A DNA stretch of 64,000 bases from Bdellovibrionales bacterium RIFOXYC1_FULL_37_79 (lineage in GTDB: Bacteria > Bdellovibrionota > Bacteriovoracia > Bacteriovoracales > Bacteriovoracaceae), in the NCBI GenBank assembly GCA_001770015.1, contig MEQB01000016.1, positions 1-64,000 on the forward strand, written 5' to 3'. Below are positions 346 through 16,912 of this stretch, in pieces. How positions within the stretch are numbered: the stretch's first letter is position 1; every line of letters starts with the position of its first letter. Below the pieces are notes generated by a model that saw only the letters and a program-made list of their open reading frames with translations, was not told the DNA's origin and ran no database searches. The position numbers were made by a program, and so were the translations under genes.

Positions 346-1527
346 ATGGTTACAAGATTGTTAAGACCCCGAAATAATTATAGCTTTTTTCTCTTAGGAC
401 CACGGCAAACTGGTAAAACTTTTCTTATCAATGCCACTTTTCCAAAAGAAACCACTCAAATGTATAACTTGCTTAATACTGATGAGTATATGAGGTATAT
501 TGCTAATCCATCTCTATTTCGAAATGAAGTGATTGCTAGGGATAAAAAAATAACTCATATTTTTGTTGATGAGATACAAAAAATTCCTGATCTATTAAAT
601 GAAATTCATTCTATCTTGGAAAATCCAAATATTGATGAGCGCTCTAAGCCCTATTTTATTTTATCTGGTTCATCCGCCAGAAAACTAAAGCGGGCCAATG
701 CTAATATGCTAGCTGGTAGGGCGATCACCTACGCACTCTATCCATTATCATATCAGGAATTAAAAGATAATTTTGATCTTTTAAGTGTACTGAAATATGG
801 AACCCTTCCGAGGATATATCTGGAGAAAGATGATTCCTTAAAAAAAGAAATTCTTCGAAGTTACGTCGAGACATATTTAAAAGAAGAGATCGAACAAGAG
901 GCACTTATTAGAAATGTTGGATCTTTTGTCCGTTTTTTAAATATTTCAGGACATGAAAGTGGAAACATTATCAACTATTCCAACATTTCTAAAGACACCG
1001 GTGTTTCTCACATCACTGTCAAAGAATATTTTAAAATTCTAGAAGATACACTGATTGGGAATTTTCTTTTTCCTTTCGGAAAATCGAAAAGAAAACGTTT
1101 AGGACGTCATCCCAAGTTTTATTACCTTGATACTGGAGTTATCAGAACTCTATGTAAAAAATTAAATAATGAACTTGAGCCTGCTACCACGGAATACGGA
1201 TCAATGTTCGAACATTGGATTATTAATGAAACTCTCATGCTTAACTCTTATTTAAAAAAAGATTTGGTGTTTTCTTTTTATCGTACCGAACATGGCGCAG
1301 AGATCGACTTAATTATTGAAACTCCAAAAAATGAAATAATTGCCGTAGAAATTAAAAGTAGTGAAACACCCAACCCGACATCGTACATGAATGGTTTCAA
1401 ATCTTTTTCAGGCGCTGTAAAAAAAATTCATAAAAAAATTGTTGTATGCAATGCTAAATATCAAAGCAAAGAAGATGATATTGATATTTATCCCTGGAAA
1501 ACGTACTTTGATTTTATCATGTCTTAG
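346..1527 (+). CDS. AAA_14/DUF4143 family ATPase
   Basis: Predicted P-loop ATPase of about 393 residues with the AAA_14 plus DUF4143 architecture. Visible motifs are Walker A GPRQTGKT at residues 18-25, Walker B HIFVDEIQKI near 70-80, and the LSGSSARKLKR sensor-like stretch that typifies the family. A C-terminal HGAEIDLII...IAVEIKSS block looks like a PD-(D/E)xK nuclease-type core. Family members are widespread, often multicopy, and their cellular role is poorly defined (mobile or defence-associated roles have been suggested). GGAG lies 12 bases upstream of the ATG, so the start is plausible but not certain. It converges on the lipoprotein gene at 1533. A diverged paralogue lies at 7921-9117. 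Confidence 0.9.
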   Translation: MVTRLLRPRNNYSFFLLGPRQTGKTFLINATFPKETTQMYNLLNTDEYMRYIANPSLFRNEVIARDKKITHIFVDEIQKIPDLLNEIHSILENPNIDERSKPYFILSGSSARKLKRANANMLAGRAITYALYPLSYQELKDNFDLLSVLKYGTLPRIYLEKDDSLKKEILRSYVETYLKEEIEQEALIRNVGSFVRFLNISGHESGNIINYSNISKDTGVSHITVKEYFKILEDTLIGNFLFPFGKSKRKRLGRHPKFYYLDTGVIRTLCKKLNNELEPATTEYGSMFEHWIINETLMLNSYLKKDLVFSFYRTEHGAEIDLIIETPKNEIIAVEIKSSETPNPTSYMNGFKSFSGAVKKIHKKIVVCNAKYQSKEDDIDIYPWKTYFDFIMS

Positions 1528-1532
1528 TTTTT

Positions 1533-2027
1533 TTATTTTTTAATCGTAATTGAAAGAACTTCTTTATAATTATTATATTCAATTTGACGTTTTTCATGAT
1601 CACAACTGAGATAGGTTAAATCTCTAATTACATGAGGGTGGAGAATTTCTTTTGTTTTATATTCGCAATGAAAAGAAATCCAGCGTTTTTCAAGCTTTTT
1701 AAGAGAAAATTCTAAAGAAAAATCATCCGCTGGATAATATTTTGCAAAAATGAGTTGATCTTTTTCATCAAATCCAAAAGTCCACTCTTGATAACCTTCT
1801 GTTGAATGATCATAAATCCAAGATTCTTGATGAAGAATCTTTTTATCTTCAACGATTTCTCGAGGTTCCCCAAAAATTTTATTAATTTTTTCTTTCGTCC
1901 ATATTTTTGCAGAAATATTCTCCAAGATATTCCAATAAAGATCTGAGCCTTTTTTTGGTATTGGAGTTTGCTGATAGCTACTACAGGAACAAATCATTAA
2001 AATTATGATGAGAAGATATTTATTCAT
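1533..2027 (-). CDS. Putative small lipoprotein
   Basis: About 164 residues. I place the start at MNKYLL (2027) because it is followed directly by a hydrophobic segment and a Cys-containing lipobox-like ICSC, and because its ATG overlaps the stop of the upstream gene by four bases (ATGA coupling). The mature part has many aromatic and charged residues, including a WTKEKINKIFGEP segment reminiscent of small outer-membrane-assembly lipoproteins of the SmpA/BamE kind, but I cannot assign it. Likely co-expressed with the exported HExxH protein. Confidence 0.65.
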   Translation of the reverse strand: MNKYLLIIILMICSCSSYQQTPIPKKGSDLYWNILENISAKIWTKEKINKIFGEPREIVEDKKILHQESWIYDHSTEGYQEWTFGFDEKDQLIFAKYYPADDFSLEFSLKKLEKRWISFHCEYKTKEILHPHVIRDLTYLSCDHEKRQIEYNNYKEVLSITIKK

Positions 2028-2734
2028 TGTTTGTCTCCAAGAAATTTTGATAGCCATTTGGTAATTGATGGGAAATTTTTTATCATGAATTCTTGTTCTG
2101 CATAAAAATATTCGACATTATTTGCAAAATCTTCCTCAGGATCATACTTTCCGTCAAGAGCCGAAAAGGAAGTTCGTTTGGTTGTGAAAGACTCTGTCTG
2201 ATTTGAATCAATCCATTCGGCAACTCTCCAATACTGCTTGCGTTCTTTTGTTGAAAGAAAACCATAAAGCAGGTGTGCCAGTTCATGAATTAAAATTCGC
2301 TTTAAATCCGTCTTGAAGGCAGCACTATAAAGGACAATAATTTTTTTAGTCGGAGCACTTGTCGCAGGATTATCCTCTGTTGCTGATTTTTTTGCACAGA
2401 AAATTTTTAACTCTCCAACCTGAGTAAGAATTTTAGGAAGAGTGCTGAAAATCTCGGCAATATTTTTTTGTTCGTTTACTGTACATTTTTTAAAAATTTC
2501 ATTTTTAAAAGGCCAGTCTTTAGGAATTTTCATTTGAAATTTTACCTTAAGTGGCCCATCACTTCGATAATTTTTGCAGTAGCTTGAAACATCCGCCTCA
2601 GAAACATGAGTTCCATCAGTACGATAATACGCTGTACGAGAATGTCCGCTTACAGGGTATTTCCCATCAGAACATTCAAGACCATGGGCTGGATTTAAAA
2701 TGATTAAATATAAAATAATAGAAAGCAATTTCAT
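2024..2734 (-). CDS. Exported HExxH zinc-metalloprotease-like protein
   Basis: 236 residues with an N-terminal signal peptide (cleavage probably after NPAHG). RILIHELAHLLYGF holds a HExxH zinc motif with H150, E151 and H154. A later EEDFANNVEYFY segment around residues 200-211 could supply the third zinc ligand (Glu), as in gluzincin-type peptidases. Four cysteines in the mature part suggest periplasmic disulfides. It is the first gene of a two-gene unit with the lipoprotein downstream. Family not recognised; zinc peptidase activity is inferred from the motif. Confidence 0.7.
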   Translation of the reverse strand: MKLLSIILYLIILNPAHGLECSDGKYPVSGHSRTAYYRTDGTHVSEADVSSYCKNYRSDGPLKVKFQMKIPKDWPFKNEIFKKCTVNEQKNIAEIFSTLPKILTQVGELKIFCAKKSATEDNPATSAPTKKIIVLYSAAFKTDLKRILIHELAHLLYGFLSTKERKQYWRVAEWIDSNQTESFTTKRTSFSALDGKYDPEEDFANNVEYFYAEQEFMIKNFPSITKWLSKFLGDKQ

Positions 2735-2885
2735 TTTATAATTATAACTAAATATACTAAAACATGGAAGAACAATGTATTATTCATAAATTGAAATTAT
2801 ATTTTTAAAAAAAATAATTTTTCCTCGGAGAATTGATAATACCTCATAAGCAATTCAAACTTAATATTAATTTGATTCGATTTCA

Positions 2886-6071: not shown

Positions 6072-7466
6072 TTACTCTCCTGCAATCTTCACACCGGTTT
6101 TAATCAACATGGCATCTGGACCACTATATCCCCTCGGTGTAGAAAAATCATCGGCTGGTTTGTTGAATTTTCTTTCATTATTACTGAATTGAAAATGACA
6201 TAAATTTTCTCCAAGGTCACCAGAAACAATTCCACCCTTGATGATTGATTTTAGTTTTCCATAATGATAAAGCTTTCCTAATTTAATCTCGCTACTCCAA
6301 CTTAAAGAAGAAGGATTTACCATTAGTGATGTAAAAGAAACTATCTCTAGGCATTCTGCTTGAGCTTTAAGTAATTCTTCTTTTGCATATCTGCCAAGCG
6401 GAACAATCATATTTCCAACAATACAATTATGTGGTTTTCCCAAATACTGCCCCATCCTGTGAGTTATCATCTGCAAGGTTACGGTATCGTTGTCCACGAC
6501 TTTGCCTGCTTTTGCACATAATCCTTCACTCGTAAATTTCGTACTTGCCGCCATGATAGGTAAAGTTGGATCAATGGTGATACTTAGAATATCTGACTCA
6601 GGCAATTTTTCTCCTTTAAAAACTTTTTGTCCAGGAAGCATATGGGGTGTTTTATAGTATTCCCTGTAAGCATTCATCTGAATTAATAAACCATCCAGTA
6701 ATCTGGCAATCGCCTCAGTGTTTATTAAGACCACTGCATTCTCTTGAGTCCTTGGTAAGATAGCATCATTCAAACTCAGGGTCTGCTCAAGCGCTTCATC
6801 AATAAACCGACTAATATTCATATCCTCGATTCCTATTGCAGATTTGATCAAATGAACTTCTTGCGTATTCGGAAGTGGTAATTTCTCCATGGCAATTTCA
6901 AAATAAACATCGGTACGATCCTGCTCACCTATTAGTCCAGTGGAAGTTTCAAAATAAGTACTTCGATTATTGGTATAAAGTTCTGCACTATTGACCTTCA
7001 CTCCCTGCAAACTCTTTACTTTAAAAGAAGCCTCTTGAATTAGTTTTTGATGAGCAGCTGCCATATTATTCTTGAGAGCTGGATCATAAGTGATTATGTC
7101 CTTAACCTTCTCATTTTCAATCTTAGGAAGATCCCATAGTTGATTGTTAACCGTCAAAGCATTGTTTAGAGTTTTTAATATCTGATCATTCAGCGGAGAA
7201 AGTGGATCAATATTACAGGTAGAATTTCCCATCATAACCGGATTCCCGTGCCGGGTAAAAATCTCGATTGAATAAGCATGATCAAAAACTTCTCTTTCTT
7301 GATAACCGACCAAACCCAATTTTTCATCACCCAACATCAAACTTTGAATCGAACGAACATCCGATAGCAATATTTTCCATCCATGAAAGACATCTTTCTT
7401 TTCCTTTTGAGTTTTAATAATTTCGTTTTTGAGTTTAGGCAAAAATTGATCATTAGATAATCCCAT
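6072..7466 (-). CDS. pmbA: TldE/PmbA-like peptidase partner subunit
   Basis: About 464 residues, U62/TldE fold. It lacks the HExxxH zinc motif of TldD; the corresponding stretch reads INTEAIARLLDGLL, as expected for the non-metal-binding TldE subunit. The start at MGLSN (7466) is supported by GGAG six bases upstream. It is the first gene of a likely tldE-tldD-GNAT-GNAT transcription unit. Function is by homology: TldE shapes the closed proteolytic chamber with TldD. Confidence 0.9.
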   Translation of the reverse strand: MGLSNDQFLPKLKNEIIKTQKEKKDVFHGWKILLSDVRSIQSLMLGDEKLGLVGYQEREVFDHAYSIEIFTRHGNPVMMGNSTCNIDPLSPLNDQILKTLNNALTVNNQLWDLPKIENEKVKDIITYDPALKNNMAAAHQKLIQEASFKVKSLQGVKVNSAELYTNNRSTYFETSTGLIGEQDRTDVYFEIAMEKLPLPNTQEVHLIKSAIGIEDMNISRFIDEALEQTLSLNDAILPRTQENAVVLINTEAIARLLDGLLIQMNAYREYYKTPHMLPGQKVFKGEKLPESDILSITIDPTLPIMAASTKFTSEGLCAKAGKVVDNDTVTLQMITHRMGQYLGKPHNCIVGNMIVPLGRYAKEELLKAQAECLEIVSFTSLMVNPSSLSWSSEIKLGKLYHYGKLKSIIKGGIVSGDLGENLCHFQFSNNERKFNKPADDFSTPRGYSGPDAMLIKTGVKIAGE

Positions 7467-7516
7467 GATAACTCCACATTGAAAATTTAGAAACATTTTA
7501 TGCTAGCCAAGAACAT

Positions 7517-7681
7517 TTAAAAGAGCAAGCCAATCTCAAAAGTAGAGTGCGCCCCTAAGACTGGATCTTGCTGCATTTTTATTAATTTAGCATAGAGATG
7601 TATAAGATTTTCTACATTAAGCGAATAAAATATTTCATCAACTTGACTTTTATAAATTTGATTATTTTGAGCAAACACCAT
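7517..7681 (-). other. Orphan 54-codon reading frame in intergenic DNA
   Basis: An ATG-initiated open frame with a protein-like composition (VDEIFYSLNVENLIHLYAKL, then QDPVLGAHSTFEIGLL). The ending vaguely recalls the C-terminus of DNA polymerase III gamma/tau or delta-prime-type proteins, which often end with an LEMALL-like segment, but I cannot confirm this. No clear ribosome binding site. It lies between two features in a zone rich in gene fragments and is probably a relic. Confidence 0.3.
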
Positions 7682-7771
7682 ATTTCATAATAAACTCCGC
7701 TACTCCGCAAAATAATTGACATTTTTTCTAAGCCACTCTCTTCAACCTGCCTACAACGATTATAGTGCACA

Positions 7772-7915
7772 ATTATTTTTAATTACGTTGATCTGTCCAC
7801 CTAAATTTTCTGCATGGACCATTCCAATGGGAAAAAGTTTTAAATGGATGATCTGATAATAAGTCTCATGAGGATACATTTCTTCCCAGGTCTTGCCGTA
7901 ATCTTTTTTAATATT
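7772..7915 (-). pseudogene. 3' fragment of a cyclase-family gene (copy of 11751-12572)
   Basis: On the minus strand about 46 codons match the C-terminal part of the cyclase-family protein at 11751-12572 nearly perfectly (KDYGKTWEEMYPHETYYQ, then LKLFPI and MVHAENLGGQIN). Roughly nine bases in ten are identical. There is no N-terminal part, and the match breaks off at INVIKNN before a stop. It begins just outside the stop of the ATPase gene at 7921, suggesting that a rearrangement boundary lies here. Confidence 0.9.
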
Positions 7916-7920
7916 TATTC

Positions 7921-9117
7921 TTAAGTAAATATTTGATCAATTCCTTCATAAAAAGACAAAAATTCAATTCCGTTTTCTACATACGCTTTATCAATATCAC
8001 TCAAAACAAGACATTTTGCCTCAGAAAATTCATCTCTAAAATCAATTAATGGCCTAGTTATATTCTTTTCAAAATACTTGGATGACTTTATCTCGATAGC
8101 AATAGGTGGTGAATTAATATTTTTTTGCATAATAATATCGATCTCACTACCATGATTGGTCCGGTAGTGAAAAATTTTATAATCGTATTTTTTGTTGCGT
8201 TTTAATATTTCATTAATGACCAGATTTTCAAACAATCTTCCATAACGATAAGTAGCAGGATTGAGCTCAACCCCAAGTTCCCCCTTAAGGGCATTCAAAA
8301 CTCCATTATCAAAGAAATAAAACTTCGCAGACTTTTGTAGCTGTTTTCTAATCGAATTTGTCCAAGCCGGAATTTTGGTAACAATCAATGTATCTTGCAA
8401 TATTTGATAATAATCTCTAACAATCTGATCGGAAACTCCCACCGTCCTGGCAATTTTACTACGATTGATAATCTCACCATTTGCAAATGCTGCCAATTCT
8501 AAAAATTGCTCAAACGCTTCAAGGTTTCTCACTCGTGATTCTTGCTGTATCTCTTCTTTCAAATAAATAAAACAATATGTTTTTAAATACTCGGTTTTAA
8601 GCTGGACATCATCAGTGATAAAGGCTTTGGGAAGTAATCCATATTGTAAAATATTTTCCAGGTGAAGTCGAAAATCTACCTCATCAAAACTTAATGTATT
8701 GAATGGAATATAAATTGCCCTTCCGGCCAGCAAATTGGTTTCTTCTCTTTTTAATTTTCGAGCAGAGGAACCCGTTAAAATAAACTGTAATCTTTGATTA
8801 TATTTTTCTATCAAACGGTGAATCTCATTTAGCAACTTTGGAACTAGCTGAATCTCATCGATAAAAATAAGTGCAGAATCATTTTTACTGAGATTAAGAT
8901 CCACTTCTTTAGCAAGCTTTTCAGAATCACGAGCATATTTTTTATAATCGGCATGGGACAAAAGATCGATCCTCGAGCTATTTTGAAAATCGCCTAAAAT
9001 ATTATTGATGTAATGACTTTTTCCCGTACCACGAGGTCCAAGAATCAAAACCGAAGCATTTTTCTTTAAAATATCATAACATATTGAATTTCTTTTAATT
9101 ATACTATTTTTATTCAT
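7921..9117 (-). CDS. AAA_14/DUF4143 family ATPase, second copy
   Basis: About 398 residues. Walker A is GPRGTGKS at residues 27-34 and Walker B is ALIFIDEIQLV. The family sensor LTGSSARKLKREETNLLAGRA and a C-terminal HGSEIDIIM...IAIEIKSSK nuclease-like core are present. It is clearly paralogous to the gene at 346 but much diverged. I choose MNKNS (9117) as the start; the longer frame would read through a perfect inverted repeat. No obvious Shine-Dalgarno sequence is seen. It is flanked by a cyclase fragment on one side and non-coding DNA on the other, consistent with an accessory gene. Confidence 0.9.
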   Translation of the reverse strand: MNKNSIIKRNSICYDILKKNASVLILGPRGTGKSHYINNILGDFQNSSRIDLLSHADYKKYARDSEKLAKEVDLNLSKNDSALIFIDEIQLVPKLLNEIHRLIEKYNQRLQFILTGSSARKLKREETNLLAGRAIYIPFNTLSFDEVDFRLHLENILQYGLLPKAFITDDVQLKTEYLKTYCFIYLKEEIQQESRVRNLEAFEQFLELAAFANGEIINRSKIARTVGVSDQIVRDYYQILQDTLIVTKIPAWTNSIRKQLQKSAKFYFFDNGVLNALKGELGVELNPATYRYGRLFENLVINEILKRNKKYDYKIFHYRTNHGSEIDIIMQKNINSPPIAIEIKSSKYFEKNITRPLIDFRDEFSEAKCLVLSDIDKAYVENGIEFLSFYEGIDQIFT

Positions 9118-9163
9118 AAATTTGGTATTATTTATATAAATATTTATAAATAATACCAAATTT
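9118..9163. repeat. Perfect 19-base inverted repeat at an ATPase gene start
   Basis: Arms 9118-9136 (AAATTTGGTATTATTTATA) and 9145-9163 are exact reverse complements, separated by eight bases. The repeat abuts the chosen ATG of the AAA_14/DUF4143 gene, so it is positioned as an operator or as a hairpin in the 5' leader. The arms are AT-rich, but a perfect 19-base match is unlikely to be chance. Confidence 0.75.
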
Positions 9164-11750: not shown

Positions 11751-12572
11751 CTAATTCTCCTCCCCAGTCATCGCCACAATCCGGCACATGGATGATTCCA
11801 GCTCAATACCCTTAAGTGGGAAACAACCAATCCATGCACGTTTATTTTTAATTTCGTTGATCTGTCCACCTAAATTTTCTGCATGGACCATTCTAATGGG
11901 AAAAAGCTTTAAATGCATGACCTGATAATAAGTTTCATGCGGATACATTTCTTCCCAGGTCTTGCCATAATCTTTTTTGAGTTTTGCTTCTGCTTCTTTA
12001 AAACATTTTGGATGCCAATCTTTAATGATCGTATTCATTGGATGATCAGCACTTCCACAATCGACTCCTATCCAATTAATTTTTTTCTTAATACACCACT
12101 TATGAAATTCTGGAGATGGTCCCGGATGTTTGACAAAATATCTCACTTCATCACATTTTTTTTGATCCCAAGCGTATCTATTATATCCAGTATTAATAAT
12201 TAAAATATCGCCTGCCTTTACTTCCACACGGGATTCAATCATCTCAGGAGTATATAAACTATAATCACTCACTTCCTCAGATATATCAACCACCACCCCA
12301 GGCCCGCACCATTCGGTGATCGGAACTTCACCAATCGTTCTACCCGCCGAATAAAAATGAATCTCACCATCCATATGAGTTCCCACATGATTACTGGTGG
12401 TAATAATCTGACCATTTGCTCCCTGTCCCATATGAGCACCAGCAATTCTTTTAAAATATTGAATTCCAAGCGGCATATATGAAGGCCACGGAGGAGTATG
12501 GATACTTAAATCCTGAGTTAAATCATAAATTTTCATTTTTTCCATCATGTCCAAAAATTTTGCATTATCCAT
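11751..12572 (-). CDS. Cyclase-family (kynurenine-formamidase-like) metal hydrolase
   Basis: 273 residues, PF04199-type cyclase fold. The metal-binding signature HVGTHMDGEIHF is complete (H62, H66, D68, H72). Relatives hydrolyse N-formylkynurenine, isatin or other cyclic or linear amides. It is the last gene of a five-gene operon with isochorismatase-fold, DUF2877, FdrA and DUF1116 proteins, 15 bases after DUF1116, and has AGGAG before the ATG. That context suggests opening or hydrolysis of an amide or ureide that feeds the carbamoyl-transfer enzyme. A 3' fragment is duplicated at 7772-7915. Confidence 0.85.
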   Translation of the reverse strand: MDNAKFLDMMEKMKIYDLTQDLSIHTPPWPSYMPLGIQYFKRIAGAHMGQGANGQIITTSNHVGTHMDGEIHFYSAGRTIGEVPITEWCGPGVVVDISEEVSDYSLYTPEMIESRVEVKAGDILIINTGYNRYAWDQKKCDEVRYFVKHPGPSPEFHKWCIKKKINWIGVDCGSADHPMNTIIKDWHPKCFKEAEAKLKKDYGKTWEEMYPHETYYQVMHLKLFPIRMVHAENLGGQINEIKNKRAWIGCFPLKGIELESSMCRIVAMTGEEN

Positions 12573-12587
12573 AACACGCTCCTTTAA

Positions 12588-13982
12588 CTATATCGTCTCA
12601 ATAAATTCTTTATAAGCTTTTATAAATGGTTCTATAGGGGCAGACAAAACTCCGGCTCCCACTTGTCCGATACCAGGATTTTTATGAGCAACTCCCGTAT
12701 TAATCACCGGAAGAATATTTTTCTCGATTACTTTTAAAACATCAATTCCGGTTGGCGTTCCCCTGAAATTTAAATAAGGTATTTGATAAATATTATTTTC
12801 CCGTTCGGTAATCTCATACATTTTGAGAGTGAAATTTGTTGCATCCTCACTCTTACCGCCAACAAATTGCACAATCGCTGGACTTGAAGCCATGGCGAAT
12901 CCTCCAAGACCCGCAGTTTCGGTGATGGCCGAATCACCAATATCTGGATTTGCATCCGCTTTGGTAAAGCCAGGAAAATAGAGGGCATCGGGCACTAAAG
13001 CTTTTCCAACAAACCATTTATCATTTGTTCCTGAAAGCTGAATTCCAAAATCTGTTCCATTTCTGGCCATCACTGTAAGAAGACTCGAGTATCTTATATC
13101 TCTCCCCGCATCCAAGCTCGCCTTTGCTTGTGCCATGGAAAGATTTAAAAAGAAGTGGTCGTTACCATTAATAAAATTTAAAACATCAATCGCATTTTGA
13201 TTTGATTTGCTGGTCTTTACAATATGCGGAGTAATTTGACGATAAAACAAAGAGGTCCCCGCCCGATTTCTGTTATGAACCTCATCGCCCATATGAAGTG
13301 CCTGGGCAATAATATTTTTTAAATCAATGCCGCCTGAAATTTGAATTGCATCTTTTAAAACGGGATAAAGAACATCTTTCATCCAATTAAGTCGTTCAAT
13401 TACGGATGAGTCATAAGCTCCATAGCGGAGAACTTTTCCAAGTCCTTCATTCATCGTAGTAAAGGCTTTATTTTTATGTTCCAGGTTTTCAATAATAAAT
13501 ACGGGCATAGAGGGACTAATAATTCCAGCCATGGGACCTACACTGTGATATCCATGACAAGGAGCAAATTTGATTTTACCGGCAAGAATTAAATTCTCTG
13601 CCTCCTCAATATTTTTTGCCATTTGCTCATATATCAAAGCACCAAGAACGGCTCCCTTCATCGGTCCACACATTCTTTCCCAAGTAATCGGTGGGCCCGC
13701 ATGTAAAATTAAATTTTTTTCCATTTGGGGAATGACATTTATTGCTAAATCCATACCTACCAGCACCGGTCTGGCTGCCAAAATTTTAGTAATCACCTCA
13801 GTGTTGGCCTTGCTAATTTTATCCATATTAAAAAGAATTTTTTGATAAAGACTGGGATCATTAACCAATGGTGGCCGCCAATCCACATGCAAAGCCCGAG
13901 CCTGATTATTTTTTAAATCACTATAAAAGTTTTTAATTCCAATGTTGATAACCTGGGGTTTTTGTTTAAGTAGATTATTCAT
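12588..13982 (-). CDS. allG: DUF1116 protein, AllG-like transcarbamoylase subunit
   Basis: 464 residues. The family hallmark HVDWRPPL near the N-terminus, GPPITWERMCGPMKGA and CHGYHSVGPMAGI identify the DUF1116 (YlbE/AllG) family. In E. coli, AllF, AllG and AllH together form oxamate transcarbamoylase, which converts oxalurate and phosphate to oxamate and carbamoyl phosphate. Here it overlaps the end of the FdrA gene by eight bases, so it is translationally coupled. The gene symbol is by family; the substrate in this organism is not shown. Confidence 0.85.
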   Translation of the reverse strand: MNNLLKQKPQVINIGIKNFYSDLKNNQARALHVDWRPPLVNDPSLYQKILFNMDKISKANTEVITKILAARPVLVGMDLAINVIPQMEKNLILHAGPPITWERMCGPMKGAVLGALIYEQMAKNIEEAENLILAGKIKFAPCHGYHSVGPMAGIISPSMPVFIIENLEHKNKAFTTMNEGLGKVLRYGAYDSSVIERLNWMKDVLYPVLKDAIQISGGIDLKNIIAQALHMGDEVHNRNRAGTSLFYRQITPHIVKTSKSNQNAIDVLNFINGNDHFFLNLSMAQAKASLDAGRDIRYSSLLTVMARNGTDFGIQLSGTNDKWFVGKALVPDALYFPGFTKADANPDIGDSAITETAGLGGFAMASSPAIVQFVGGKSEDATNFTLKMYEITERENNIYQIPYLNFRGTPTGIDVLKVIEKNILPVINTGVAHKNPGIGQVGAGVLSAPIEPFIKAYKEFIETI

Positions 13983-15531
13983 TTTCCCCTCGATTTAATT
14001 TTTTAAGTATTCGAACACAAAGGTAAGCACCTTGTGCATTTGAAAGTGGCACAATTACATCCATTTCTTTTAATTTTTTTATTATTTCCTTTTTATTTTG
14101 AGGATCACCATCAGTACCCGTAACCGTACAAATAATTAACAAGTCTTTATTGGCATCTTTAGCCTTTTTTATAGTTGGTAAAAATTCCTGGCCGGGATTT
14201 TTATTTGATCCAAATCCTAAAACCAAATCAACATATAAACACGCCACTTCAGGATCTTGTGCTTCCTTTAAAATCCTTTCATTTCGAAGAGTATAATCAA
14301 TCATGGGATGCGGTCTACCCTGGGTAAATTCATCTGCTCCTAAATCAATGATTGTATTTTTTATACTCAAACTGGGATCATCCAATAATTTTGAGGTCTC
14401 CGCTTTTAGGTTGGAATGAATATCTTGAATTAATTCCTGTCCCATAACCAGTAGGGTTTCGAATGCAAAAGTACCTCCACTAAAGAGTCCTCTTAGATAC
14501 TTTTGTTTGAAATTTAATTTTTTCACTTGGTTCTTTAATTCAGCGTCATACTGATCTTTATCCAAAGTAATTACCCGATTCAAAGATAATTCCAATGCTT
14601 TCATCGCCCCCTCTTCCAAGGTCTTGGCATAAATCATATTATATTTTTCAACTAAAGATGACTTGGCACCTAAAAAGACCGCTACGACTTGTTTATTAGT
14701 CTTTAAAGTAAGCTTGCCAATTTTAGCAAGCACATCGACATGGGGAGGTTTGGAAACCAGTAAAATAACTTTGGTATTCTCATCTTCAATTAATAAATTG
14801 AGTGCTGATAAAAAAGTAATCCCACCTATCTCTTTACCAACATCTCGTCCACCGGTGCCAATGGCATGACTTATTCCTCCCCCTAAATTGGTAATCAGCG
14901 AAGTAACTTCTTGGGTTCCAGTACCAGATGCACCAACCACACCAATATCTCCCGAATGTACTTTATTTGAAAAAGCCAAGGGAACACCGCCAATAATGGA
15001 TGTCCCGCAATCTGGTCCCATCACCAGAAGATTTTTTGAATCAGCATATTTTTTCAGCATCAATTCATCTTCAATAGAAACATTATCTGAAAATAGCATG
15101 ACATTCATACCACTATTTAAGGCCTTCATCGATTCTGTTGTCGCATATTTTCCAGCGATAGAAATAAGCGCCACGTTAGCATCTTTCATTTCACTTTTAG
15201 CCTGACCCATACTAAAAAATATTTGTTCATTACCTGTATTTTTTCTTTTTTTAAGGTCAATCAAAATTTCGTCAAGTTTTAAAATTGCTTCTTCAGAGAT
15301 TTTTTGATTCTCACCCTTGATCGAGATAAGCAGATCATTATCTAGGGCCTTACTAAAATCCTCAACGTATAATCCCGAGGCTTTTAAAATTTTTCGATTC
15401 TCCAAAGTTCCCATAACGATAGCAGCATCTATTACCCTTTTTAATTCTTTTATTTTTTTGGTTGCTACCATCAAGGTTATAGAATCAAAATATTCCCCAG
15501 ATTTAATTAATGACTTAATAACGTGGGCCAT
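13975..15531 (-). CDS. fdrA: FdrA-like protein, AllF-type transcarbamoylase subunit
   Basis: 518 residues with a succinyl-CoA-synthetase-like fold. Motifs seen are VMGPDCGTSIIGG, GVVGASGTGTQEVTSLI and GTGGRDVG, typical of FdrA and related to the CoA-binding and ligase domains of acyl-CoA synthetases. GGGAG precedes the ATG. It overlaps the DUF2877 gene upstream by 25 bases and DUF1116 downstream by eight, so the three subunits are tightly coupled. Role by family: subunit of a carbamoyltransferase that makes carbamoyl phosphate from a ureido acid. Confidence 0.88.
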   Translation of the reverse strand: MAHVIKSLIKSGEYFDSITLMVATKKIKELKRVIDAAIVMGTLENRKILKASGLYVEDFSKALDNDLLISIKGENQKISEEAILKLDEILIDLKKRKNTGNEQIFFSMGQAKSEMKDANVALISIAGKYATTESMKALNSGMNVMLFSDNVSIEDELMLKKYADSKNLLVMGPDCGTSIIGGVPLAFSNKVHSGDIGVVGASGTGTQEVTSLITNLGGGISHAIGTGGRDVGKEIGGITFLSALNLLIEDENTKVILLVSKPPHVDVLAKIGKLTLKTNKQVVAVFLGAKSSLVEKYNMIYAKTLEEGAMKALELSLNRVITLDKDQYDAELKNQVKKLNFKQKYLRGLFSGGTFAFETLLVMGQELIQDIHSNLKAETSKLLDDPSLSIKNTIIDLGADEFTQGRPHPMIDYTLRNERILKEAQDPEVACLYVDLVLGFGSNKNPGQEFLPTIKKAKDANKDLLIICTVTGTDGDPQNKKEIIKKLKEMDVIVPLSNAQGAYLCVRILKKLNRGENE

Positions 15532-16328
15532 GGATACTCCCTTTTAATAACTTCATACAAACCAACCAATTGATCGAGCCCTGAAGAATACCCAACTTGA
15601 GATTGCTCTTCAAAAGCCTCTTTTAAATCATTAAGTGATCCGCTAGATAAAACCTTAATAAAATTCTTCATCCGGCAAGAGACCAATCCTTTAAAAGCAC
15701 TTTTTAAAAACCAGTTGGATAACTCATTTTCTCCAAGCGAATTTTCTAAAATTAGCTTGAGTATTCTATCTCGGTAAGAATCAATTTGTCTTGTACATAA
15801 CATCTTTAAATGAATTCCAATCATCATTCCCATTAAAAAATCATCTCCGGAAGGAGTAAGACCTCTTCCAAGCCCTCTGAGCATTTCAATACCTTCCAGC
15901 AAATCCTCTTCAAAAATGACACGTTTACCCTCTAATAATTGATATTTTAAATGATCATCAAAACTTATTGGTTGATTAGGTTTAGCTTGATCATCAATCA
16001 AATAAGAAAGGTTTTTATTTTCTAAAAGACGTTCTCGAAAATATTCCAGTTTTTCCCTCGGAATTTGAATTTTTACTTCCTTGAAATTGGAACTTGATCG
16101 CTTGACATCATTTTGTTTTAAGTATTCCTTGGTTAATACCATTTCTTGATTATAATTATCCAAATTCTCAACCACAATATTATAAGGGCCACCACCTACT
16201 TCAGGAGTAACCAGAGAAAACATACTATCATCTGAAATATTCATATAATTCACAACATGAATAAATTCGCTGTGAATCTTATATTGACCAGGTATTAAAT
16301 AATCGCCAACCTCAAAAATTTTGAGCAT
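15507..16328 (-). CDS. allH: DUF2877 protein, AllH-like transcarbamoylase subunit
   Basis: 273 residues. LRGLGRGLTPSGDDFLMGMMIG is the DUF2877 (YlbF/AllH) signature, here around residues 150-171. It overlaps the isochorismatase-fold gene upstream by 17 bases and FdrA downstream. The family forms the third subunit of the AllFGH oxamate transcarbamoylase. Nothing in the sequence reveals which ureido acid is used here. Confidence 0.85.
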   Translation of the reverse strand: MLKIFEVGDYLIPGQYKIHSEFIHVVNYMNISDDSMFSLVTPEVGGGPYNIVVENLDNYNQEMVLTKEYLKQNDVKRSSSNFKEVKIQIPREKLEYFRERLLENKNLSYLIDDQAKPNQPISFDDHLKYQLLEGKRVIFEEDLLEGIEMLRGLGRGLTPSGDDFLMGMMIGIHLKMLCTRQIDSYRDRILKLILENSLGENELSNWFLKSAFKGLVSCRMKNFIKVLSSGSLNDLKEAFEEQSQVGYSSGLDQLVGLYEVIKREYPWPTLLSH

Positions 16329-16881
16329 CTTTCAATAGCTTTACAAGAGTTTTAAATTCAGAACGATCCACTCTTTGCAGTAAATAAAACAAGAGTGTTT
16401 CTGTACTCATAACATAAGCTCCAGCTTTTTCCATCAAAGCAAGTCCATTTTCCCATTTTAACTTGGTGGATGAGACACAGGCATCCTTTAAAACGATTAC
16501 ATGATAATTATCTGACAACAAATCAATAACAGTTTGTAAAACGCATATATGGGTTTCCAAACCTGATACCACTACAATCTTGCGACCATACTTTTTTAGA
16601 TTATCTTTAAAATCTAAATTTTTAAAACAACTGAAAGTTACTTTATCTGTAAAAGCATCACCTTTCCAAATTTTACAAATCTCATTATCCGTATGTCCAA
16701 GACCTTTCACGTAATGTTCAGTTCCAATCATTGGAATTTTTAAATCACCAAACATTTGAATTGTTGTTAACACGTTTTTTCTTGCCTGCTTTAGAACATT
16801 AGATGGAATAAGTGGGTAAAACTTATCTTGCATATCAATGACGAGATAAAGAAGGTTTTCAATTTTAATATTGTTCCACAT
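16312..16881 (-). CDS. Isochorismatase-family cysteine hydrolase
   Basis: 189 residues. An early LVIDMQDKFYP carries the catalytic Asp. KIVVVSGLETHICVLQTVIDLL carries the nucleophilic Cys in the conserved G-x-E-T-H-I-C-V context. Relatives (YcaC, nicotinamidase, N-carbamoylsarcosine amidase, ureidoacrylate hydrolase) cleave amides or carbamoyl groups. It leads the operon of carbamoyl-transfer genes, consistent with cleavage of a ureide or amide. The start codon sits inside an inverted repeat (16879-16912) whose loop carries the ribosome binding site. Confidence 0.88.
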   Translation of the reverse strand: MWNNIKIENLLYLVIDMQDKFYPLIPSNVLKQARKNVLTTIQMFGDLKIPMIGTEHYVKGLGHTDNEICKIWKGDAFTDKVTFSCFKNLDFKDNLKKYGRKIVVVSGLETHICVLQTVIDLLSDNYHVIVLKDACVSSTKLKWENGLALMEKAGAYVMSTETLLFYLLQRVDRSEFKTLVKLLKDAQNF

Positions 16882-16912
16882 ATGATTTTCCTTTTTTAAA
16901 AGAAATCATATG
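16879..16912 (-). promoter_or_regulatory. Inverted repeat enclosing the ribosome binding site and start codon
   Basis: Arms 16879-16888 and 16903-16912 (CATATGATTT and its exact complement) flank a 14-base loop containing AAAAAAGGA. The proximal arm includes the ATG of the isochorismatase-fold gene. In RNA this would pair the start codon; as DNA it could be an operator. It is well placed to control the whole operon. Confidence 0.6.

Follow-up and report, generated by a model that had tools for sequence, protein, structure and literature searches.

The window analysed here (64,000 nucleotides, positions 1 to 64,000 of contig MEQB01000016.1 of Bdellovibrionales bacterium RIFOXYC1_FULL_37_79) contains an operon of five genes, which code for the AllH, AllF and AllG subunits of an AllFGH-type carbamoyl-transferring complex, a cyclase-family metal-dependent hydrolase and an isochorismatase-fold cysteine hydrolase. 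They appear to supply the greater part of a poorly known pathway, whose genes stay together in at least a dozen phyla. We propose, with a probability of roughly 0.5, an oxidative, ATP-conserving route for uracil-type pyrimidines, in which the operon would supply the half that opens the ring and harvests the carbamoyl group, the substrate and every reaction being deduced from the company these genes keep. It is this gene company that points to a uracil-type pyrimidine, beyond what the window alone showed. The proposal draws on gene content, conserved linkage, exact co-occurrence, retained residues, a non-xanthine active site and uracil-type permeases.

The neighbourhood comparison of FdrA (AllF), DUF1116 (AllG) and DUF2877 (AllH) proteins, suggested by an earlier reading of the window from its letters alone (the sequence-only reading), covered 80 loci of AllG relatives in the genome collection. 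A cyclase gene is present at 64 of the 80 loci, and 56 of these 64 also have genes for the subunits of a molybdenum (Mo) hydroxylase, many of the remainder being cut by contig ends. The conserved order is AllH-AllF-AllG-cyclase, followed by the flavin adenine dinucleotide (FAD), 2Fe-2S and molybdopterin subunits of the hydroxylase; a few lineages, chiefly Spirochaetota, have the same genes in a different order. Judging by the tree and the origins of the sequences, carriers of the AllG operon span at least a dozen phyla.

The genome under study (4.36 Mb, 96% complete, 74 contigs) also encodes a three-subunit Mo hydroxylase, located on a third contig, apart from both the operon and the carbamate kinase gene discussed below. 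It is the orthologue of the operon-linked hydroxylase, sharing 76% identity in the large subunit with that of a Bdellovibrio metagenome-assembled genome. AllG was found in nine out of 129 genomes of the same class, and exactly these nine have a hydroxylase with more than 70% identity (next best match 32%) and a cyclase with more than 65% identity. Since the hydroxylase and AllG reside on different contigs in five of the nine genomes (G000, G059, G060, G061 and G062), linkage alone does not explain this match. The linkage at 56 of 64 loci and the exact co-occurrence in nine genomes therefore define the working unit as AllFGH, cyclase and Mo hydroxylase, and the joint action of these proteins is well supported. 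The five-gene system of the sequence-only reading is thus a real operon but an incomplete one as described, its constant partner being encoded elsewhere in the genome.

All five genes are intact open reading frames (ORFs) on the minus strand (Table 1), transcribed in the order isochorismatase-fold gene, AllH, AllF, AllG, cyclase. Successive junctions are overlaps of 17, 25 and 8 nucleotides and a gap of 15 nucleotides, so the genes are tightly coupled. Both the operon and its coupling, as claimed from the letters, are borne out by these junctions and by the clear family score of each intact ORF. AllF also exceeds the cut-off of the NCBIfam FdrA model (479.9 bits against 433), and the solved structure 3clq is a homologue of the window AllG. 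Promoter and terminator scans gave no signal above chance. Some 3.9 kb from the intact cyclase gene, just downstream of an ATPase-like ORF, lies a relic of the 3' part of this gene. This points to a rearrangement or partial duplication on the downstream side of the operon, an event by which the hydroxylase genes may have been parted from it.

Table 1. Location and family assignment of the operon genes (window 11751-16881) and of other features mentioned in the text
Feature	Location	Strand	Length	Family match or remark
Isochorismatase-fold cysteine hydrolase, YcaC-like	window 16312..16881	-	189 aa	Pfam PF00857, 103 bits
AllH-like (DUF2877) subunit	window 15507..16328	-	273 aa	PF11392, 68.5 bits (cut-off 25)
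AllF/FdrA-like subunit	window 13975..15531	-	518 aa	Ligase_CoA PF00549, 96 bits; CoA_binding PF02629, 42 bits
AllG (DUF1116) subunit	window 12588..13982	-	464 aa	PF06545, 325.5 bits (cut-off 27)
Cyclase-family metal-dependent hydrolase	window 11751..12572	-	273 aa	PF04199, 122.7 bits (cut-off 23.1)
ATPase-like ORF	window 7921-9159			
Cyclase relic	window 7766-7909	-	144 nt	93% identical to intact copy
Three-subunit Mo hydroxylase (candidate)	C11:4330-8078			
Carbamate kinase	C52:41987-42919			TIGR00746, 346.5 bits (cut-off 358)
Hydantoinase-family protein	C36:4467			D-hydantoinase, 502 bits; allantoinase, 287 bits (below cut-off)
Urate-type cluster (L090)	G000 C36:152000-171000			
Xanthine-dehydrogenase-type cluster (L089)	G000 C43:1-14000			
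GNAT-like, thiolase, DUF35 module (L022)	464-2752			
GNAT-like, thiolase, DUF35 module (L082)	6677-8973			
E. coli plasmid set (L155)	NZ_CP019909.1, 5816-13026			

In the proposed pathway, the Mo hydroxylase would oxidise uracil or thymine to barbiturate or its 5-methyl derivative, and the cyclase, as the ring opener, would convert barbiturate to ureidomalonate. The AllFGH-type complex would then split ureidomalonate with phosphate, in the way that AllFGH splits oxalurate, to give carbamoyl phosphate and malonamate. From carbamoyl phosphate, carbamate kinase would produce ATP, CO2 and NH3, and the isochorismatase-fold enzyme is proposed to act as an amidase on malonamate, giving malonate and NH3. 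Compared with oxalurate and oxamate, on which E. coli AllFGH acts (PMC11326118), ureidomalonate and malonamate are homologues longer by one carbon. The comparative evidence agrees with the route outlined in the sequence-only reading, in which a cyclic amide is opened, a ureido acid formed and carbamoyl phosphate made, possibly for ATP.

The three subunits that make up an oxamate carbamoyltransferase are all present and intact in the window. AllF is 39% identical to YahF and 38% to AllF of E. coli, AllG is 48% identical to YahG and 44% to AllG, and AllH shows 23-29% local identity to YahE/AllH. As AllF and AllG are thus at much the same distance from AllFG and from YahFG, we do not claim that they are orthologous to the oxalurate enzyme. 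The near-invariant positions common to E. coli AllFGH and YahEFG are retained (87 in AllG, 72 in AllF and 11 in AllH), and the residue loss that would have spoken against transcarbamoylase activity is not seen at them. To our knowledge, the catalytic residues of this family have not been published.

With E. coli AllFGH and AllK (PMC11326118) the window system shares the three subunits, the conserved residues and carbamoyl phosphate as the proposed product, but its AllF and AllG are only 38-44% identical to their counterparts, it has a cyclase and a Mo hydroxylase as partners, its carbamate kinase is encoded on another contig and its neighbourhood has no allantoin genes. The YahEFG-YahI system has the same H-F-G subunit order and the closest E. 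coli sequences (AllG 48%), whereas its locus includes the carbamate kinase-like YahI and the amidohydrolase YahJ in place of the cyclase and hydroxylase. No allantoin-pathway gene was found in or beside the window operon, and carbamate kinase is not in the operon either. The window operon is probably not an E. coli-style allantoin/oxalurate operon, in agreement with what had been noted from the window. We give hardly any credence to an ordinary allantoin/oxalurate operon with its remaining genes elsewhere: the genome is split into many contigs and does encode a hydantoinase-family protein on C36, but the hydantoinase and allantoinase search, likewise suggested earlier, has shown this protein to score as a D-hydantoinase and to stay below the allantoinase cut-off (AllC, AllD and AllE were not searched separately).

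The predicted fold of the cyclase is closest to isatin hydrolases, kynurenine formamidases and related cyclases. Isatin hydrolase is a lactam-opening enzyme. Family score, fold and the HxGTHxD metal motif all place the window cyclase in PF04199; conservation of this motif and of an ADHPMNT block extends to a haloarchaeal relative with 46% identity. The latter adjoins a Mo hydroxylase, a cytosine deaminase and codB, which we count in favour of a pyrimidine substrate. Other cyclase relatives, about 45% identical, reside on haloarchaeal plasmids (L097, L108, L109 and L111) next to Mo hydroxylase, XdhC/CoxI and MocA-like genes, with no AllFGH in the inspected stretch. Such loci probably represent a related ring-opening route in archaea.

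Further clues to the substrate come from the hydroxylase and the permeases. All aligned operon hydroxylases have Ala or Ser at the position of the xanthine dehydrogenase Glu (in GGxFGGKE) and lack Arg at the Arg position, while retaining the catalytic-Glu motif; the two other Mo enzymes of the genome, which are xanthine-type, carry both Glu and Arg. The two positions were mapped via the genome's own xanthine-type enzyme, and we take them to be bovine Glu802 and Arg880. The partner hydroxylase, lacking both signature residues, was accordingly rejected as a xanthine dehydrogenase; since E. coli XdhA also departs from the signature, this criterion gives an indication and no proof. Six NCS2 permeases are encoded beside related operons, and by score every one of them fits uracil permease or RutG better than xanthine permease (five were scanned directly, the sixth, at L028, was typed by 70% identity to a scanned one). 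One operon-linked permease compared with solved structures matched UraA with an E value of 2e-76 and the urate-xanthine permease UapA with 1e-13. A clostridial locus (L081) combines AllH, AllF, AllG, cyclase, carbamate kinase, three hydroxylase subunits and a uracil-type permease, and this set is preceded by two PucR-like regulator genes (one of them scanned).

The same enzyme logic could serve a different cyclic ureide, for instance a modified pyrimidine or an intermediate derived from a purine or imidazole. Many N-heterocycles are substrates of Mo hydroxylases of this family, the genome also has a urate-type purine cluster, and the haloarchaeal cyclase relatives adjoin xanthine-type permeases and a hydantoinase-like protein. 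We find this rather doubtful, as the operon-linked permeases are uniformly uracil-type, the hydroxylase lacks the xanthine dehydrogenase residues and the genome's own xanthine-type enzymes are separate genes.

A variant oxalurate pathway was also considered, in which the cyclase would form oxalurate by opening parabanate or another five-membered cyclic ureide of this kind, AllFGH would yield oxamate and carbamoyl phosphate, and the isochorismatase-fold enzyme or an amidase would convert oxamate to oxalate, to be activated in relatives by a class III coenzyme A (CoA) transferase. Isatin, the substrate of the nearest (computed) cyclase fold, and parabanate have the same vicinal dicarbonyl amide. 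The action of E. coli AllFGH on oxalurate (PMC11326118) likewise argues for this variant. It would leave the conserved Mo hydroxylase and the uracil-type permeases unexplained, the recurrent operon neighbours include no recognisable oxalyl-CoA decarboxylase-like gene, and AllF and AllG show no greater similarity to AllFG than to YahFG; we regard it as unlikely.

What follows the core genes differs between lineages. Three tail modules were found at the AllG-relative loci, and they never co-occur: the isochorismatase-fold enzyme in Bdellovibrionota, an amidase with a class III CoA-transferase (type A) mainly in Cloacimonadota and Bacteroidota, and a GNAT-like protein with a thiolase and DUF35 (type B) in several phyla. 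We read them as alternative ways of disposing of one acid amide product, for which mutual exclusion is expected. The type A CoA-transferase was not found in the genome under study. The type B module is conserved beside AllFGH at about 14 loci (e.g., L022 and L082), its GNAT-like protein having no Pfam or NCBIfam match. The predicted structural model of this protein is GNAT-like as well, and its 50 listed matches are general acetyltransferases or uncharacterised proteins, with no malonyl-CoA decarboxylase among them; its identification as a malonyl-CoA decarboxylase, which had been considered, thus found no support.

Several observations weigh against uracil-type pyrimidines as the substrate. 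A malonamate product does not easily account for the type B module, and the type A CoA-transferase scores best as CoA:oxalate CoA-transferase, although below the cut-off, and would also suit oxamate/oxalate chemistry, as in the oxalurate variant. The haloarchaeal context is mixed: its permeases score as xanthine type, its hydroxylase is only about 25% identical, and cytosine deaminase is present at only one inspected locus. No UraA-type permease was found in the genome under study, whose single PF00860 protein has no NCBIfam match. Finally, the nine carriers belong to one family (eight genera, amid many genomes that lack these genes, one of them a sister within the same genus), so the co-occurring genomes are not fully independent.

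The sequence-only reading had cautioned that carbamate kinase might be missing only from the window. This caution was justified, since the genome search found the gene on contig C52. Its product falls slightly short of the TIGR00746 cut-off, yet exceeds that of NF009007, and among the E. coli enzymes is nearest to YqeA (43%). No arginine deiminase was found in the genome, which we count in favour of the pyrimidine pathway. Contig C36 codes for YgeW (67% identical to that of E. coli), YgeY (54%), an SsnA-like amidohydrolase and a selenium-dependent-xanthine-dehydrogenase-type enzyme, which is most of the reductive urate cluster (PMC12507026); the hydantoinase-family protein of this contig fits the HyuA role of that cluster. 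The reductive urate pathway with YgeW and YqeA resembles our proposal in that a transcarbamoylase releases carbamoyl phosphate for carbamate kinase, but the YgeW fold is unrelated to AllFGH and the pathway has its own cluster on C36. The single C52 kinase could serve both carbamoyl-phosphate-producing routes. The urate-type cluster, both here (L090) and at L102, also includes pyridoxal phosphate-dependent lyase-like proteins, with hydantoinase elsewhere on the contig. A separate xanthine-dehydrogenase-type cluster (L089), with Mo, FeS and FAD subunits and XdhC-like and MocA-like proteins, adjoins an adenine phosphoribosyltransferase-like ORF.

In the classical oxidative route, uracil is converted to barbiturate, which is degraded by barbiturase (AtzD/Bar) and ureidomalonase with the release of urea; both the rarity of this route and the small size of its barbiturase family have been noted (PMC3758960). 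The proposed pathway has in common with it the oxidation to barbiturate and the opening to ureidomalonate, and the candidate hydroxylase on C11 supplies the three-subunit Mo enzyme of the classical scheme. It differs in that a PF04199 cyclase would replace AtzD/Bar, and phosphorolysis to carbamoyl phosphate would replace hydrolysis to urea. The barbiturase profile PF09663 had no match in the genome, nor in the control genomes. A uracil-dehydrogenase-like gene beside barbiturase was looked for on plasmids, where the best hydroxylases inspected (at most 36% identical) sat in unrelated clusters. The open papers searched contain no description of the combination of AllFGH, cyclase and Mo hydroxylase. 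That these genes constitute a widespread undescribed energy-conserving route for uracil or thymine, made up of Mo oxidation, a new cyclase-type barbiturase and AllFGH-type phosphorolysis to carbamoyl phosphate and ATP, is in our estimate a nearly even proposition. If true, organisms of at least a dozen phyla, for the most part uncultured lineages, would run the oxidative pyrimidine route with a different gene set, and the ureido group would yield ATP instead of being lost as urea. There would then be concrete genes for uracil oxidation, a second type of barbiturase and a role for a large AllFGH branch, in which the annotation "oxamate carbamoyltransferase" would often be wrong.

The isochorismatase-fold gene is the variable part of the operon, being found among the AllG-relative loci only in Bdellovibrionota. 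Both hydrolases had been assigned to an amide-opening route; this holds for the cyclase as the putative ring opener, but the isochorismatase-fold enzyme is probably a downstream amidase. Residues fitting an Asp/Lys/Cys triad (in VIDMQ, DKVTFS and ETHICV) are kept in five Bdellovibrionota homologues. Against NCBIfam the enzyme scores 49 bits as YcaC and 23.3 bits as BiuH, both far below cut-off (370 for the BiuH equivalog), and its identification as BiuH was rejected. This bears on a biuret/allophanate-type operon with an added cyclase, modelled on the biuH-allFGHK clusters of nitrifiers (PMC12625717) and E. coli plasmids, in which an isochorismatase-fold hydrolase and AllHFG, with or without carbamate kinase, form a recurring set. 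Such an origin is very improbable, since the window enzyme is not BiuH and the inspected plasmid and Peptoclostridium loci, which carry a BiuH-type hydrolase and carbamate kinase along with AllHFG, have neither cyclase nor Mo hydroxylase. The window enzyme shows 22% local identity to the Peptoclostridium one and no match to that of the E. coli plasmid. On conjugative E. coli plasmids (L155) the set of BiuH-type hydrolase, AllHFG and carbamate kinase is accompanied by an allophanate hydrolase C-terminal-domain protein and a cytosine-permease-like protein, and possibly represents a phosphorolytic biuret/allophanate route.

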